Shown one piece after another: positions 11,213-51,276 of a stretch of 64,000 bases of DNA. The notes under the pieces are model-generated. The model was not told the origin of the DNA and made no database searches. It was given only the letters and a program-made list of their open reading frames with translations. How positions within the stretch are numbered: position 1 is the first letter of the stretch; every line of letters starts with the position of its first letter. Source of the DNA: Gammaproteobacteria bacterium MedPE (GTDB taxonomy: Bacteria; Pseudomonadota; Gammaproteobacteria; Enterobacterales; Psychrobiaceae); contig MPDF01000003.1 of the NCBI GenBank assembly GCA_001874365.1, positions 1-64,000 on the forward strand, given 5' to 3'. Position numbers and translations under genes: made by a program.

Positions 11213-11818
11213 ATGAGCGTATTAGTAGGTCGTCCTGCACCGGACTTCACAGCAGCAGCAGTACTAGGTAATGGCGAAATCGTTGATTCATTCACGCTAA
11301 GTGAAGCAATCAAAGGTAAAAAAGCAGTTGTATTCTTTTACCCACTAGACTTCACTTTCGTATGTCCATCAGAGCTTATCGCTTTTGATGCACGCTTTGA
11401 AGAGTTCCAAAAACGTGGTGTTGAAGTAATCGGTGTTTCTATCGATTCACAATTTAGCCACAACGCATGGCGTAACACGCCTGTAAACGAAGGCGGCATT
11501 GGTCCAGTTCGTTACACATTAGTTGCTGACGTTAAGCACACTATCTGTCAAGACTACGATGTTGAGCATCCAGAAGCTGGCGTTGCTTTCCGTGGTTCTT
11601 TCCTAATTGATGAAGAAGGTAACGTTCGTCATCAAGTAGTTAACGATTTACCACTTGGTCGTAACGTTGACGAAATGATCCGTATGGTTGACGCGCTACA
11701 ATTCCACCAAGAAGTTGGCGAAGTATGTCCAGCTGGTTGGAACCAAGGTGACAAAGGTATGGACGCATCTCCAGCAGGCGTAGCTAGCTACCTATCTGAA
11801 AATGCAGATAACCTATAA
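11213..11818 (+). CDS. Typical 2-Cys peroxiredoxin (AhpC/TSA family)
   Basis: This enzyme reduces hydrogen peroxide and organic peroxides. The 201-residue product has the peroxidatic Cys51 in FYPLDFTFVCPSE and the resolving Cys172 in EVCPAGW, so it is a typical 2-Cys peroxiredoxin. The C-terminal tail is long enough for the dimer exchange seen in this class. The ATG at 11213 has GGAG 6 nt upstream; a longer frame from 11180 has no ribosome site. It lies after grxD and ends in a strong terminator. No ahpF is seen nearby, so the electron donor is probably thioredoxin (inference). Confidence 0.95.
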   Translation: MSVLVGRPAPDFTAAAVLGNGEIVDSFTLSEAIKGKKAVVFFYPLDFTFVCPSELIAFDARFEEFQKRGVEVIGVSIDSQFSHNAWRNTPVNEGGIGPVRYTLVADVKHTICQDYDVEHPEAGVAFRGSFLIDEEGNVRHQVVNDLPLGRNVDEMIRMVDALQFHQEVGEVCPAGWNQGDKGMDASPAGVASYLSENADNL

Positions 11819-11845
11819 TTTAGTACTTCACTAAATTGATGACTT

Positions 11846-11870
11846 AAGGCCGCATTCGCGGCCTTTTTTA
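11846..11870 (+). terminator. Terminator of the grxD-peroxiredoxin unit
   Basis: AAGGCCGC (11846-11853) and GCGGCCTT (11858-11865) pair perfectly around ATTC, followed by a run of T. Confidence 0.9.
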
Positions 11871-11979
11871 TTTTTTCCCTCTCAAATCTTCAAATCATAC
11901 TCACTTTATAAAAATAATTTTTTGCTTAAATCCAGCCTGAGCAAGGGGAACGAGCGATCAATTTATAATCACTGAATTT

Positions 11980-12022
11980 TATATAGCAAGCTACCTTGTA
12001 ACGCAAGGTAGCTTGCTATATA
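11980..12022. promoter_or_regulatory. 43-bp perfect inverted repeat, probable PadR operator
   Basis: The left arm TATATAGCAAGCTACCTTG (11980-11998) and right arm CAAGGTAGCTTGCTATATA (12004-12022) are perfect reverse complements with the 5-nt spacer TAACG. Each arm also contains an inner dyad (TAGCAAGCTA / TAGCTTGCTA), so the site could hold two regulator dimers. It ends 9 bp before the padR start codon. Autoregulation by the adjacent PadR protein is the simplest reading. No T run follows, so it is not an intrinsic terminator. Confidence 0.7.
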
Positions 12023-12031
12023 GTTTGTGTT

Positions 12032-12370
12032 ATGAAAGCACAAAACACAATTTCGCAAATGCGACGCGGTATTTTGGAATTCTGCATCATTAGTTTGTTA
12101 GCAGACAACGAAATTTACACCGCAGAACTTATCGACCGGCTAAAGGCTGCTGATCTGCTCGTGACAGATGGCACACTGTATCCGCTACTTAATCGACTAC
12201 AAAAAGCCGATATCTTGCAATATCGCTTCGTTGAGTCTGAGTCTGGTCCGCCACGAAAATATTATTCGTTAACAGAAGAAGGCCACGCGGTACTTAAAGA
12301 TTTAGACGGTGCTTGGCAAGAGATACATGGTTCAGTTGAAATGATTCGACGAGGAAATGACAGTGAATAA
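12032..12370 (+). CDS. PadR family transcriptional regulator
   Basis: This is a small PadR-family winged-helix regulator, 112 residues. MRRGILEFCIISLLADNEIYTAELIDRL is the typical first helix region, followed by the recognition block DGTLYPLLNRLQKADIL and the wing (SGPPRKYYSLTEEG). It is a short PadR of the subfamily-2 type with a brief C-terminal helix for dimerisation. It overlaps the next gene (PspC-domain protein) and lies directly behind the 43-bp palindrome at 11980-12022. This two-gene arrangement, PadR plus a PspC-like membrane protein, is common; the inducer is unknown. No clear Shine-Dalgarno sequence is visible, and the palindrome would place the transcript start very close to the ATG. 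Confidence 0.93.
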   Translation: MKAQNTISQMRRGILEFCIISLLADNEIYTAELIDRLKAADLLVTDGTLYPLLNRLQKADILQYRFVESESGPPRKYYSLTEEGHAVLKDLDGAWQEIHGSVEMIRRGNDSE

Positions 12371-14087
12371 AGTAGTCAATATTGAAATTGCTAAGCAAGT
12401 TTTCTGGATAGAAGAGCTGGGTTACCAAACGCTGCAAGCCTATCTCGAAAAATTAAAGCAACAACTTGCTACACAAGAATTTGGTGACGAAATCTTCGAA
12501 GATATTGAGTTACGCTTCGCCGAATTATTCTACGGTGTTAACGAAGGAAAACAGCGAGCAATAACCCTTGAACAAGCCAAGGAGTTCATTGCACAAGTCG
12601 GTTATTTAGGCGATGAGGAATCTGTTGATGAGCCTGTTGAGAAAACGACGCCAAAAACCTATTTAGATGACAACAACAAAATTGTTGCCGGTGTATGTGC
12701 TGGATTCTCTTTAAGATTCAATATTCCTGCATTGTTAATTCGCTTGGCGTTTACTGGCGCAATTGCTACGTTTGGATTCGGCATAGTGATGTATCTTATC
12801 TTGTGGTTTTCGTTTGATAAGAACAATAGTAGAAACAAAGTGTTAGCATCGAAAGGTGAAACTGCTACTGCACAAAAAATTGCTGCGGTTGGTGATGTGC
12901 CGAAAAGTAAATTCCTGACATTACAACGGGTACTATTTCTTCCCTTTAGCGCAATAGGTTTGGCAATCCATATTATTGTTCATGGCATATTTGCCCAACG
13001 GGCATTTTTTCGGTGGTTACTAAAGAACGTTTTGTTATTGGCGCTGCTGGTCGTGCTTGGTTTACTTGGCATTGGTATTAGTGAATTTAATCATGACCAA
13101 ATTTATTACCAGTGGGTGCAATGGATATTAAGCGCGGCAACTATTTATTTAATGGTTGTTGGCGGTGTGGTGTTTATTCGTGAATATTATCTAGAAAAGC
13201 CACGCCGGCCGGTTAACAGAACGCTTAAGATGCTAACAACTGTGCCAATAGCGTTAATTATTACCAGCGTATTTTACTTAATGGTTGAAATGTCTGACGA
13301 GAAGCAATTGACTCGACAAGTCACTATTACGCCAGAAAATAACATGATGACATTAGCGATCGTCGAGCCTGATCGAGATAATTATCTAGCGCGAAATGTC
13401 GACATTGAGCTTGTTACAACTGCAAATGATGCAAGTGATATTCAGGTTAGTCTTGTTTATTTTAGCAATGGTCGCAGTGAGCCTGCATTGTCGGAAAATA
13501 TTGAGGCAATCGATTATCAGTATAGCGTAAGTGATAATGTGTTGACGCTCAATCGCTACTTTCAACTTTTTCCTGAAACTTTTAATCGCGGCCAGCGCGT
13601 GACAGTTCGCATTGAAGTGCCACAGCAGATAACCATTGATTCATCGCACCTAATGCTTGTGAATATTAAGCGCGAAAGTCCGCGATACATTATCGATAAA
13701 GTCAGTGAATCAACGAACGTATATCGTTCAGCATCGAATTATCTGCACGAGTTCAATGAGCTCGATAACAATCGGGTAACTAGCAATGAACGTCTAATAT
13801 TGCTCGGACAATTTTGTGATGTATTTTTCGCTAAATTACATTGGCGATGCATGAATAGCGAAGAAATGCCTGTGCTAAAAGACGAGCGCTTCGACGCTAG
13901 TTTCCAAGATGATCGCGATACAATTTATGCATTATTGACTAAGATTAAACAGGTGAAGACGTTAGATATAAAGTCGCTGACAGAGCTTAGTAGCACCATT
14001 GCTATTCTTAAGAAGAAACACCCACAAGTTGAAGAACTCAGTCAATATATTCAACACTTAATATTGATTAAAAGACCGCCTTCGTAG
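12363..14087 (+). CDS. PspC domain-containing membrane protein
   Basis: This is a 574-residue membrane protein. The N-terminal soluble region (residues about 1-95) is followed by a PspC domain (DNNKIVAGVCAGFSLRFNIPALLIRLAF... to about residue 150), two or three further membrane segments near residues 190-310, and a C-terminal extracytoplasmic region that reads as beta-rich. PspC proteins act in the phage-shock/membrane-stress response in enterics; here the association is with PadR. I prefer the GTG at 12363, which is 7 nt after AGGA; the ATG at 12357 lies too close to that site. It overlaps padR by 8 nt, so the two are translationally coupled. Whether the downstream ABC genes belong to the same transcript is unclear because of a 164-bp gap. 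Confidence 0.85.
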   Translation: MNKVVNIEIAKQVFWIEELGYQTLQAYLEKLKQQLATQEFGDEIFEDIELRFAELFYGVNEGKQRAITLEQAKEFIAQVGYLGDEESVDEPVEKTTPKTYLDDNNKIVAGVCAGFSLRFNIPALLIRLAFTGAIATFGFGIVMYLILWFSFDKNNSRNKVLASKGETATAQKIAAVGDVPKSKFLTLQRVLFLPFSAIGLAIHIIVHGIFAQRAFFRWLLKNVLLLALLVVLGLLGIGISEFNHDQIYYQWVQWILSAATIYLMVVGGVVFIREYYLEKPRRPVNRTLKMLTTVPIALIITSVFYLMVEMSDEKQLTRQVTITPENNMMTLAIVEPDRDNYLARNVDIELVTTANDASDIQVSLVYFSNGRSEPALSENIEAIDYQYSVSDNVLTLNRYFQLFPETFNRGQRVTVRIEVPQQITIDSSHLMLVNIKRESPRYIIDKVSESTNVYRSASNYLHEFNELDNNRVTSNERLILLGQFCDVFFAKLHWRCMNSEEMPVLKDERFDASFQDDRDTIYALLTKIKQVKTLDIKSLTELSSTIAILKKKHPQVEELSQYIQHLILIKRPPS

Positions 14088-14251: not shown

Positions 14252-15130
14252 ATGTTATCGATTCAAGCACTATCTCACACCTATGGAAATGGCGTAAAAG
14301 CCATCAACAACGTCAACTTAACTATTCCAAAAGGCATGTTTGGTTTACTTGGGCCAAATGGCGCAGGGAAATCTTCCCTAATGCGCACGTTAGCAACGTT
14401 GCAGCAGCCAACAAGCGGCGAAATTACATTTAATGGCGTTGATATATTAAATTCACCTGATGATTTACGCCGTCAACTTGGTTACTTACCGCAAGACTTT
14501 GGTGTGTATCCACGCGGTAGTGCGTATGATTTGTTGAATCATCTTGCTGTACTCAAGGGACTTACCGACAAGAAGGCTCGTCATCAAGCGGTCGAACGAC
14601 TGCTGGTCCAAACAAACTTGTTTGAAGTCAGAAAGAAAAATGTTGCTACATTTTCTGGCGGCATGCGACAACGATTTGGTATTGCGCAGGCTTTGCTCGG
14701 TAGGCCACAATTGATTATCGTTGATGAACCGACAGCAGGCTTAGATCCAGAAGAGCGTAATCGTTTCCACAATCTCCTAGCCGACATCGGTGAAGACATT
14801 GTTGTTATTTTATCGACGCATATTGTCGAAGATGTTGCCGATTTGTGCACTAACATGGCGGTACTGGCAAAAGGCGAAATATCGGCACATGGCAAACCTA
14901 AAGATTTAATTAACGCGCTAAACGGTCAAATCTGGACTAAAACAATCCACAAATCACAGCTAAATGACCATCGAGAATCCTACAAGGTGATTTCAGATCA
15001 TCTGTGTAGCGGCCAAGTTGAAATTCGTGTGCATTCAGCCAACAAACCTGATGACTCGTTTGGTGTTGCAACGCCCAATTTAGAAGACGTATATTTCATC
15101 GCGATTGGCAAGGAGGCTACCAATGATTAA
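14252..15130 (+). CDS. ABC transporter ATP-binding protein
   Basis: This is the ATPase subunit of an ABC-2-type exporter, 292 residues. Walker A GPNGAGKS is at residues 34-41, the Q-loop LPQDFGVYP near 79-87, the signature SGGMRQ at 135-140, Walker B LIIVDEP at 154-160 and the H-loop STHIVED near 186. AAGGA precedes the ATG. It overlaps the next gene by 8 nt; that gene encodes a permease fused to a peptidase, so the two form one transporter complex. The C-terminal part ends in LEDVYF, common in ABC-2 ATPases of the CcmA type. The substrate is unknown. Confidence 0.93.
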   Translation: MLSIQALSHTYGNGVKAINNVNLTIPKGMFGLLGPNGAGKSSLMRTLATLQQPTSGEITFNGVDILNSPDDLRRQLGYLPQDFGVYPRGSAYDLLNHLAVLKGLTDKKARHQAVERLLVQTNLFEVRKKNVATFSGGMRQRFGIAQALLGRPQLIIVDEPTAGLDPEERNRFHNLLADIGEDIVVILSTHIVEDVADLCTNMAVLAKGEISAHGKPKDLINALNGQIWTKTIHKSQLNDHRESYKVISDHLCSGQVEIRVHSANKPDDSFGVATPNLEDVYFIAIGKEATND

Positions 15131-18100
15131 TTGCATTATGCGTCATGAGTTTCGGTATCAACTCATCTCGTGGCAAAGTTTGTTTATTGGCAGTTTATTA
15201 TTTGGAATCGCCTTTATCTTCACGGCAAACGGTGTTGAGTTTCAAGGCACTGCACGTGGTGGTAACGTATTTATTAACTCGCCTTATATGATTGCTAAGT
15301 TTCTGATTTTAATGTCGATACTATCGGTATTTATTGCGCCTAGTTACTTAGCTAATGCCATTTTAAAAGATCACGATTCAAAATTTGATGGATTGTTGTT
15401 TTCAACGCCCATTAATAAAACAGATTATGTCGTTGGACGTTTTCTGGGGAGCTTTTTAGCCTTTGCTGTTGTTATTGCTATGCTGCCATTGGGCATGTGG
15501 ATTGGTACTCATTGGCCTTGGGTGGTTGAAGGTACACTAGGCGAAGGTGGGATTTCGCAATATGTACAAGTGTACTTCACCATGATTTTACCAACCGTAT
15601 TCATTATTTCGGCATTAATCTTTGCCATGACACTGGCGTTTAAAAAGATTATCTACGCGTACTTAATGGCACTGTTGTTGGTTATTTTATTTATTAGCGT
15701 TGATATATCTACGGCGGTATCCGGTATTGTTGACCCTTTTATGGGGGATCTTTATGGTCGTCATACCGAATATTGGACCGCTGCGCAGCGCAATTCTACG
15801 ATGTTGACCATTGAAGGTGATTTACTGATTAACCGACTTATATGGGTTAGCGTCGCTGTGGTGTTATTAGTTGCTGCATATATAACATTCTCAATGAGAA
15901 CGCCGCCAAAACAACCGAAAGTGAATCACAAACAAGCGGGCTCTGAAACAAAGCTTAAGGCGCTGGTAGATCTTAATGCAGATATAACGTCTAGTTGGCA
16001 TTCAAATAGCCATTGGTTGCAGTTAGTACATTGTCTTAAATTTGAAATGAATGCTATTTTGCGCAGCGTGCCATTTTTAATCTTGATGTCGCTGTGTTTC
16101 TTTTTACTGTTTTTCTCTCTCACTGGGCGTCAAACCGTCTACGATGTAAATACTTACCCATTAACAAGATTCATGCTCAGCGCTATTCAACAAGCCTTAA
16201 CTGGTGCATTAATGGTCATATTGGCGTTCTATAGTGCGGAAGTATTATGGCGTGAACGTCGTAGCAATATCAATGGCGTGATGGATGCTTTGCCAACGCC
16301 TAATTGGGTATTTGTGGTGAGTAAAGTTGGGGCGCTGGTGGCAATGATGATTGCAGTCGTCGGCTTAGGCGTATTAATGGCGATTATTTTACAGCTAGTT
16401 AGTGGTCACTACGACTTACGCTTAGGTGAATACGTTTATCGCGGACTTGTTTACTACCCCATTGCTTATATTTATTTAGCAATTCTTGCCTGTTTTCTAC
16501 AGGTACTTGTCAATAACCGAGCGATTGGGATCTTGCTCTTTATCATGTTTATTGGTTTGCTTTCTCTATCTCGCGACATCTTAGGCGTTGAGCATATGCT
16601 TTTGAGTTATGGCTTGCCGGGAGTTTGGGCGCCATTATCCGAAATGAACGATAATAGTGATTTAGCAACGGCGGGAATTTGGCTACGTGTTTATTGGGGT
16701 GCAATGGCTGGCGTAATGTTAATGCTTACGTATATGTTTTATACACGCGGTACATCACAGTCAATGCGTTTTAGATTGAAGAAATTAGCGGCATTTCGCA
16801 CTAAGGGTTACATATCTATTTTTGCTGGTTTAATGTTGGTGTTTATCAGCAGTGGCAGCTTTATTTATTACAATACTAATGTGATTAATACATACCGCTC
16901 ATCTCTCGATCTTGACCAAATAAATCTTGATTACGAAAGCAAGTATCAGCAGTATTCTCAATTACCGATGCCGCGCATTGTTGATGTAAAAATAGATGTT
17001 GATATTTATCCGATCAAACGCCGTGTCGAAACACGTTCGACTCAAATATTAGAGAATAAAACCGGTGAGCCCATTTCGACCATTCATCTTGTTTTTCCTA
17101 TTCAAGCCAGTGTTGTCTCGGTTGAGTTAGAAGGTGCAACAATTGCTTTTATCGACAAGCCACTTGCTTATTATATCTATGAGTTAGATCAGCCAATGCT
17201 TGCTGGTGAGCAGCGCACTTTAAACTTTGAAACCTTAGTGACCAGACGTGGTTTTGAGAATAATGGTCAAGACATTCGGTTAGTCCGTAACGGCACCTTT
17301 GTCGGTAATAACTTACTGGCACCGCGTATCGGTTTTTATGATGGATTGTTACTGCGAAATAATAAGGAACGAAAATCATACGGTCTTAAGCCATTGTCTC
17401 GAATGCCAGCGATTGAAGACACCCACGAACATCATAATAGCTACGTCAGCCACGACAGTGATTTTGTCAATTTTGAAACCACAGTATCTACCATTAAAGG
17501 TCAACAAGCCATCGCGCCTGGCTATTTAACCAAGCAATGGACGAATAATGAACGGGAGTATTTTCATTATAAAATGGATAAACCCATCATGAACTTTTAT
17601 AGCTTTTTATCGGCTGATTACATGGTCGCTCATGATGAAGTCAATGGCATTGATATCGATATCTACTACCATAAAACGCATGATTTTAACGTTGCGCGCA
17701 TGCTTGAAAGTGCCAAAGATAGTCTGAACTACTACAGTAAAGCGTTCTCGCCTTATCAGTATAAACAACTACGCATATTGGAGTTTCCAGGTTATCAAAC
17801 CTTTGCCAGAGCCTATCCAAATACGATTCCGTTTTCAGAAAATATGGGGTTTGTGACCGATCAACGTGACCCGCAGCAACTTGATCTCCCATATTATGTG
17901 ACTGCCCATGAAGTAGCGCATCAGTGGTGGGCGCATCAAGTGATGGCGGCGAATGCACAAGGCGGCACCATGGTGGTAGAAACATTAGCGCAATACAGTG
18001 CATTGATGGTTGCGGAGAAGAAATACGGCAAGCATAAGTTGCGTCAGTTTCTTAAAGCCGAATTAGATAGATATCTGCGTGGTCGTGGTAGTGAATCACA

Positions 18101-18704
18101 AGGTGAATTACCGCTCTACAAAGTGGAAAACCAACCTTATATTCATTATCGCAAAGGCTCGCTAGTGATGTACGCCTTAAAGGACTATCTGGGTGAAGAT
18201 GTTATCAACGCAGCGTTAAAACGTTTTGTGAAGAATCACGCGTTTAAATCGCAGCCCTATGCGTTATCGACTGACTTTATTGGTTATTTAAGAGACGAGG
18301 CTGGTCCCGAGTATGCCACTCTCATCGATGACTTATTCACCAAGATTACGTTGTTTGATTTGTCGTTTGAGCAAAGCACTGTCCAAAAAATGGATGACGG
18401 TCGATTTAAAGTGACATTGAGTATTGATGCATCTAAGCATTATGAAGATGCTATTGGCAATGTTACTGCGGCCTTGTTGGACTTACCTATTGATATTGGA
18501 CTCTTTACACGTCATCCATCACATCGAGATTTTAGTGAAAGTGACGTCATTCAACTTGATAAACAATCACTGAAAACAGGGACCTCGACATTAGAGTTTA
18601 TTGTCGATAAACAACCGCTGTTTGCTGGTATTGATCCCTACAATAAGCTGATTGATGTTGAATCTGACAACAATATCGGCGAGGTTGAATTGATTGAAGA
18701 ATAG
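15123..18704 (+). CDS. ABC-2 permease fused to M1 family metallopeptidase
   Basis: This 1193-residue protein joins an ABC-2 permease (about residues 1-600, around twelve hydrophobic segments in two sets of six) to a periplasmic M1 aminopeptidase-like domain (about 620-1190). The zinc site is intact: His929-Glu930-x-x-His933, with Glu953 in VETLAQYSA; the spacing is 19 residues against 18 in classic M1 enzymes. A conserved NTIPFSENMGF precedes it and Tyr residues follow (YIHYRKGS). The ATG at 15123 has AAGGAGG upstream and overlaps the ATPase gene. The layout suggests ATP-driven export or extraction of a peptide processed on the outer face, which is inference. Such fusions are known in Shewanella-like bacteria but poorly characterised. 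Confidence 0.9.
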   Translation: MINCIMRHEFRYQLISWQSLFIGSLLFGIAFIFTANGVEFQGTARGGNVFINSPYMIAKFLILMSILSVFIAPSYLANAILKDHDSKFDGLLFSTPINKTDYVVGRFLGSFLAFAVVIAMLPLGMWIGTHWPWVVEGTLGEGGISQYVQVYFTMILPTVFIISALIFAMTLAFKKIIYAYLMALLLVILFISVDISTAVSGIVDPFMGDLYGRHTEYWTAAQRNSTMLTIEGDLLINRLIWVSVAVVLLVAAYITFSMRTPPKQPKVNHKQAGSETKLKALVDLNADITSSWHSNSHWLQLVHCLKFEMNAILRSVPFLILMSLCFFLLFFSLTGRQTVYDVNTYPLTRFMLSAIQQALTGALMVILAFYSAEVLWRERRSNINGVMDALPTPNWVFVVSKVGALVAMMIAVVGLGVLMAIILQLVSGHYDLRLGEYVYRGLVYYPIAYIYLAILACFLQVLVNNRAIGILLFIMFIGLLSLSRDILGVEHMLLSYGLPGVWAPLSEMNDNSDLATAGIWLRVYWGAMAGVMLMLTYMFYTRGTSQSMRFRLKKLAAFRTKGYISIFAGLMLVFISSGSFIYYNTNVINTYRSSLDLDQINLDYESKYQQYSQLPMPRIVDVKIDVDIYPIKRRVETRSTQILENKTGEPISTIHLVFPIQASVVSVELEGATIAFIDKPLAYYIYELDQPMLAGEQRTLNFETLVTRRGFENNGQDIRLVRNGTFVGNNLLAPRIGFYDGLLLRNNKERKSYGLKPLSRMPAIEDTHEHHNSYVSHDSDFVNFETTVSTIKGQQAIAPGYLTKQWTNNEREYFHYKMDKPIMNFYSFLSADYMVAHDEVNGIDIDIYYHKTHDFNVARMLESAKDSLNYYSKAFSPYQYKQLRILEFPGYQTFARAYPNTIPFSENMGFVTDQRDPQQLDLPYYVTAHEVAHQWWAHQVMAANAQGGTMVVETLAQYSALMVAEKKYGKHKLRQFLKAELDRYLRGRGSESQGELPLYKVENQPYIHYRKGSLVMYALKDYLGEDVINAALKRFVKNHAFKSQPYALSTDFIGYLRDEAGPEYATLIDDLFTKITLFDLSFEQSTVQKMDDGRFKVTLSIDASKHYEDAIGNVTAALLDLPIDIGLFTRHPSHRDFSESDVIQLDKQSLKTGTSTLEFIVDKQPLFAGIDPYNKLIDVESDNNIGEVELIEE

Positions 18705-22424: not shown

Positions 22425-22457
22425 AAAGCCCCGTAATGTTGAGTTACGGGGCTTTTT
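22425..22457 (+). terminator. Terminator of small protein A
   Basis: AAAGCCCCGTAA (22425-22436) and TTACGGGGCTTT (22444-22455) form a perfect 12-bp stem with a 7-nt loop, followed by T residues. Confidence 0.9.
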
Positions 22458-29052: not shown

Positions 29053-29086
29053 AAAAAAGCAGTGATGTTGCCATCACTGCTTTTTT
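29053..29086. terminator. Bidirectional terminator between lysR and rne
   Basis: AAAAAAGCAGTGATG (29053-29067) pairs perfectly with CATCACTGCTTTTTT (29072-29086) around TTGC. A/T runs on both sides serve both convergent genes. Confidence 0.9.
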
Positions 29087-47665: not shown

Positions 47666-47699
47666 AAAAAAGGCACTAAATCAATTTAGTGCCTTTTTT
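47666..47699 (-). terminator. Terminator of the aminotransferase gene
   Basis: A 16-bp perfect stem: AAAAAAGGCACTAAAT (47666-47681) with ATTTAGTGCCTTTTTT (47684-47699), loop of 2 nt on paper (so a few inner pairs open). T run on the minus strand. Confidence 0.85.
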
Positions 47700-51246: not shown

Positions 51247-51276
51247 AGGCGCTTAACGACGTTAAGCGCCTTTTTC
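51247..51276 (+). terminator. Terminator of the dsbA-like gene
   Basis: AGGCGCTTAAC (51247-51257) and GTTAAGCGCCT (51261-51271) pair perfectly around GAC, followed by a T run. Confidence 0.9.

Follow-up and report, generated by a model that had tools for sequence, protein, structure and literature searches.

A 43-bp perfect palindrome upstream of padR as a putative autoregulatory operator overlapping a conserved promoter-like element

A perfect 43-bp inverted repeat precedes a padR gene in the window, the whole 64,000-nucleotide stretch of DNA analyzed here, and its inner part, its position and its overlap with a promoter-like pair of hexamers are shared by the orthologous padR promoters compared. 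Judging from these features, the palindrome is very probably an operator through which a PadR dimer represses transcription of its own gene and hence of the padR-pspC operon, possibly together with the ABC transporter genes that follow. The original prediction had proposed an operator for autorepression, and this proposal was supported by the core found in 13/13 distinct orthologue promoters, by a half-site and a spacing like those of a published PadR-s2 site and by the overlap with the conserved promoter-like pair. The arrangement is ordinary for a PadR repressor, and its form is unusually long and symmetric. The coordinates of the features are collected in Table 1.

Table 1. Coordinates of the palindrome, of the promoter-like elements and of the genes downstream (positions in the window).
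Feature	Position	Strand	Remark
Perfect inverted repeat, putative extended PadR operator	11980..12022	.	19-bp arms, 5-bp loop
Conserved core TACCTTG-N5-CAAGGTA (TACC-N11-GGTA), 19 bp	11992..12010	.	From orthologue promoters
-35-like hexamer TTGTAA, putative promoter	11996..12001	+	Within the operator core
-10-like hexamer TATAGT	12019..12024	+	Overlaps the palindrome at its right end; spacer of 17 bp
Predicted start of the padR mRNA (leaderless), on or beside the ATG	12031..12032	+	Inferred from the -10 spacing
padR, 112 aa, PadR-s2-like (PF03551)	12032..12370	+	ATG start
PspC-domain/toast-rack membrane protein, probable operon partner	12357..14087	+	14-nt overlap with the end of padR
ABC transporter ATPase, possible further operon member	14252..15130	+	
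ABC-2 permease segments and M1-type peptidase domain, possible further operon member	15105..18704	+	

The product of padR carries the PadR winged helix PF03551 (60.8 bits vs. a cut-off of 27) in a short protein of the PadR-s2 size (about 110 aa), and 39 matches at E ≤1e-4 were obtained against solved sequences, nearly all of them named as PadR-type regulators. Counterparts of the PadR-s2 motifs YGYE(I/L), EGT(L/I)YPxLxRLE and G(P/R)RKYYx(L/I)TxxG (PMC3506622) were read by eye as YTAEL, DGTLYPLLNRLQ and PPRKYYSLTEEG, all of them close and each with at least one substitution. A relative of the PspC protein was located 3' of padR in 31/31 loci (L009-L039) by tblastn of the window proteins, the match often covering only the first 150-180 residues and, in L017, only the 33 residues that fit the fetched stretch. 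Of the 14 closest loci (L009-L022), seven showed the ABC ATPase at more than 60% identity (L009, L010, L011, L012, L018, L021 and L022; the L017 stretch ends before the position of this gene). Beside the ATPase gene, one single frame fuses the permease segments and the peptidase domain; its first start codon is at 15105, and a start further downstream is possible. Within the genus, this padR was detected in 2/9 genomes, the own one included (E ≤0.001; some of the others are incomplete), and therefore the padR-pspC module looks accessory. Orthologues 76-77% identical were observed in records whose titles name another class or phylum, namely Kordiimonas (L013), a metagenome-assembled genome titled Holophagae (L018) and Aliikangiella marina (L014/L015), the latter having two padR copies 59 kb apart with identical 140 upstream bases. 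These records and the A. marina copies suggest horizontal spread and a recent duplication of the module.

The arms of the palindrome (11980-11998 and 12004-12022) are complementary at 19/19 nucleotides (100%) with 5 nt between them, and the gap 12023-12031 separates the repeat from the ATG at 12032, in agreement with the perfect repeat 9 bp 5' of padR first described. No longer perfect-arm inverted repeat was detected in the window with loops of up to 12, and the maximum arm per sequence was 9-11 in 20 first-order Markov sequences of the window length. The palindrome is real and beyond chance. As had also been pointed out, a second dyad, TAGCNNGCTA, is present in both arms, its occurrence in the second one following from that in the first because of the perfect complementarity of the arms. 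This nested design had been called unusual; nevertheless, a 4+4 dyad with a spacer of 0-4 was held by 17.6% of random 19-mers drawn from the window, and nesting alone is thus unremarkable. The lack of a T run directly 3' of the palindrome was borne out as well (tail GTTTGTGTTA), and despite this tail the palindrome was still scored as terminator-like by a loose terminator scan. A clear terminator-like site was located 3' of ahpC (11846-11865). Other long inverted repeats of the window, at 47666-47699, 29053-29086, 22425-22455 and 51247-51271, all had T runs on their 3' side and resemble ordinary terminators, and another one at 1024-1058, with 13-bp arms and a 9-base loop, had no T run after it.

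The conservation of the palindrome was analyzed in an ungapped alignment on the dyad centre of the window, 14 loci of at least 71% identity and L095. According to the record titles, the rows came from Colwellia, Aliikangiella, Pleionea, Kordiimonas and several metagenome-assembled genomes (one Holophagae). Dropping L009 (equal to the window over 61 bases), L015 (equal to L014) and L095 (equal to L017) gave 13 distinct rows; L004 and L096-L099 were left out, their promoters repeating those of L009, L014/L015, L020 and L019. The core, which in the window reads TACCTTGTAACGCAAGGTA, was exact in 11/13 distinct rows, L013 and L018 each deviating by a single base, with TACCTTG-N5-CANGGTA in 13/13 and no compared row without a core. 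The dyad centre was always 30-32 nt 5' of the padR ATG (13/13 distinct rows). At the inner offsets 3-9 of these 13 rows, 89/91 cells were symmetric with a single Watson-Crick type per position. The outer arms vary in letters and mostly retain their symmetry, since at offsets 10-19 of the 13 rows 105/130 cells were symmetric and more than one Watson-Crick pair type was observed at 7/10 positions; slid-partner controls gave 11-50 of 130. In shuffles of the right-hand letters, which ignore the relatedness of the rows, the outer-arm value of 105/130 was reached by 0/2000, the 85/110 that was obtained when a single Colwellia row was kept also by 0/2000, and the 29/91 of the flank (offsets 24-30) by 178/2000. 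The outer symmetry was broken in L017, L019, L020 and L022. The nearest relative, L009, with a padR 99% identical, showed 13 substitutions and one gap against the window over 11819-11979 (alignment count), vs. 0 differences in the 52 bases of 11980-12031. On the evidence of this alignment, conservation marks out a single dyad, with its centre at 12001, as the unit; the earlier idea of two regulator sites, based on TAGCNNGCTA, was not supported, given that this dyad was confined to 4/13 distinct rows (the window and three Colwellia).

A TTG at a fixed place followed, after 17 bp, by TANNNT was observed in 14/14 rows, the -10-like hexamer being TANNNT in 13/13 and TATAGT in 9/13 distinct rows and lying 6-8 nt from the ATG. 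A promoter scan of 11800-12100 gave two promoter-like sites (the other one at 11889-11918) vs. 0.9 (sd 0.9) in shuffled sequences; the promoter was therefore assigned from conservation and not from the scan. The -35 element is less certain than the -10 element, because its TTG belongs to the operator core and its conservation is not independent. None of the SD-like tetramers AGGA, GGAG, GAGG and AAGG was found in the last 20 nt before the ATG (14/14 rows). From the spacing of the -10-like hexamer we infer that padR transcription starts at or beside the ATG; with such a start the padR mRNA would probably be leaderless, and the palindrome would be promoter DNA instead of leader RNA.

In the mechanism proposed here, a PadR dimer would sit on the dyad centred at 12001 with its recognition helices in the two TACC/GGTA half-sites, covering the -35-like TTGTAA and reaching the -10-like TATAGT, so that RNA polymerase could not bind. 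When allowed, transcription would begin at or next to the ATG and yield a leaderless message without the hairpin, and release of PadR may follow a signal that the co-encoded PspC/toast-rack membrane protein helps to sense. The palindrome might instead be transcribed as part of the padR leader and fold there into a hairpin that prevents or times translation, and in fact the + strand folds strongly (centroid -31.2 kcal/mol, z -7.3) and the outer-arm pairing survives changes on both sides. Such a hairpin is nevertheless very improbable: the palindrome has the conserved -10-like hexamer at its right end, which places the start after the hairpin, none of the 14 rows offers an SD-like tetramer to hide, no Rfam family was found at cut-off in 11500-12500, and the core is fixed in its letters as well as in its pairing; furthermore, a possible upstream -10, TATAAT at 11964-11969, is TATGAA in the nearest relative. 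The same hexamer, by putting the start at the ATG, disfavors the stem hiding the translation start that had originally been offered as another function; with a direct block of polymerase and a probably leaderless mRNA, such a stem is unlikely.

Binding of two PadR dimers to the long palindrome, one per arm or as central and flanking contacts, would lead to cooperative repression. The symmetry reaches offset 19, roughly double the extent of the core, and includes changes in both arms, and both several shifted complexes of cdPadR1 on its promoter (PMC5050560) and two LmrR dimers on PlmrCD (PMC4534193) have been reported; however, the restriction of the proposed arm dyad to 4/13 distinct rows, together with the lack of good outer symmetry in 4/13, makes this possibility rather unlikely. 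As for a multicopy or mobile palindromic repeat (REP/MITE-like) or a terminator placed before padR by chance, long perfect palindromes are typical of such elements and the loose terminator scan flagged this one. Nevertheless, when 201 bases around the palindrome were searched against the 3.25-Mb assembly (80.9% complete), both strands of the palindrome gave a match only at its own place. The genome-wide search for copies suggested in the original prediction thus gave a single one, and the palindrome is not a multicopy repeat because there is one copy in the 81%-complete assembly. The exact core was found in 5/369 class genomes, the own one included, vs. 1/369 for the reversed pattern, none of the 13 distinct rows departs from the position 30-32 nt before the padR ATG, and a T tract is missing. 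Being single-copy and conserved in position, the palindrome contradicts the REP/MITE-like reading, and a repeat or terminator of this kind is extremely improbable. An operator for PadR at its own promoter remained the preferred reading.

With up to one mismatch, the core occurred at three places of the assembly, the palindrome and two others inside open frames; 21 two-mismatch matches were listed, and the two inspected (2/2) were also inside open frames. Allowing up to three mismatches, 175 core matches per strand were obtained vs. 104 for the reversed pattern, and additional weak sites may therefore exist. The arm pattern TATATAGCNNGCTA had one exact match outside the palindrome (C120:20350-20363), the best core score in the gap between pspC and the ABC genes was 9/14, and the one inspected of the four exact-core matches in other class genomes (G182) was inside an open frame. 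Hence, no further strong operator-like site was found in the assembly (81% complete; 2/21 two-mismatch matches inspected), which suggests that PadR is a local autoregulator. A second PadR gene of the assembly (L104, on C20) has a 12/14 match, TACTTTG-N5-TAAATTA, near locus position 1359 of a 3.5-kb stretch, which could be due to chance.

Additionally, the 200 bases preceding padR genes were scanned with a relaxed core, TACYWTG-N5-CAWRGTA, at a threshold of 12/14; this core was chosen after viewing L009-L039, and only L040-L076 form the held-out set. It was present in 13/13 close loci (L009-L022 without L015, with L009 in and the window out), 12/17 Bacteroidota-type loci and 17/37 held-out loci, the latter 17 including records titled Bacillus, Paenibacillus, Clostridium, Acidobacteria, Gemmatimonadota and a cyanobacterium. 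In the 37 held-out loci, control spacers of 2-4 and 6-8 gave 0-4 and the reversed pattern gave none; in other windows of each set of loci, the relaxed core was seen in 3/661 (held-out), 2/231 (close) and 2/302 (Bacteroidota-type) cases. A looser core precedes related padR genes in several bacterial phyla. No 12/14 core was found in the 200 bases upstream of 20/37 held-out and 5/17 Bacteroidota-type padR genes, and therefore the relaxed core is not universal. Most of the Bacteroidota-type genes L024-L035 (e.g., L030, L033 and L034) showed a TAC(T/C)TTG-N5-CATAGTA-like core 50-151 bases before the ATG. The TTTG inside the core of some of these genes could be the -33 element of their promoter type, and the same operator may lie over a different promoter class there. 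A broader proposal, that PadR-s2 genes, many of them pspC-adjacent, share a TACYWTG-N5-CAWRGTA code of constant geometry across phyla, and that the branch of the window adds a leaderless promoter and a long covarying dyad for more than one PadR dimer, is tentative and seems doubtful as a whole.

The palindrome leaves the known working of PadR repressors unchanged, and it gives an uncharacterised PadR-PspC module of several phyla a concrete, testable candidate promoter and binding site. The association of PadR with PspC and toast-rack proteins has been described, with the HAAS domain proposed as the link, and the available part of this account describes no operator (PMC11237479). As in those modules, a standalone PadR here adjoins a PspC and toast-rack protein. 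Unlike in the HAAS-PadR modules, no Pfam HAAS match at E ≤1 was found in the N-terminal part (residues 1-108) of this protein; its PspC and toast-rack domains were detected. The core TACCTTG-N5-CAAGGTA was not found named in the excerpts of the open-licence PMC literature on PadR.

The older PadR consensus is given as ATGT-N8-10-ACAT (PMC3506622, PMC5428041), and this canonical ATGT/ACAT pair was absent from 11980-12022 when read by eye. As reported for LmrR and the canonical PadR box, where a PadR-family dimer represses its own gene and a transporter operon (PMC4534193, PMC5428041, PMC3506622), the dimer proposed here would act on its own operon; in contrast to them, the half-site differs and the palindrome has no ATGT/ACAT pair. 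LftR, with 108 residues, is described as binding a partially palindromic site of its own promoter with a Kd of 6.2 nM (PMC6457526). The closest likeness in half-site was to cdPadR1, a PadR-s2 protein of Clostridioides difficile. Gel shifts revealed binding of cdPadR1 to TACT(N11-12)AGTA repeats of its own promoter, small fragments without the repeats were unbound and longer DNA was bound non-specifically; variable spacer lengths were tolerated and an AT-rich spacer was required (PMC5050560). A fixed 11-nt spacing is thus no demonstrated requirement of cdPadR1, because changed spacer lengths were tolerated. In the window, a TACY/RGTA inverted repeat, 11 nt apart, lies in the regulator's own promoter at 11992-12010. 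The TAC/GTA operator, known from a single clostridial member of the PadR-s2 group, may accordingly be a common one among these proteins. The palindrome and the cdPadR1 operator are both inverted repeats in the own promoter with TAC/GTA ends at an 11-nt distance, and the second repeat copy of cdPadR1 (N12) overlaps its predicted -35/-10 (PMC5050560). Whereas cdPadR1 has two separate repeats, here TACC-N11-GGTA forms part of one perfect 43-bp dyad, 9 bp from the ATG.
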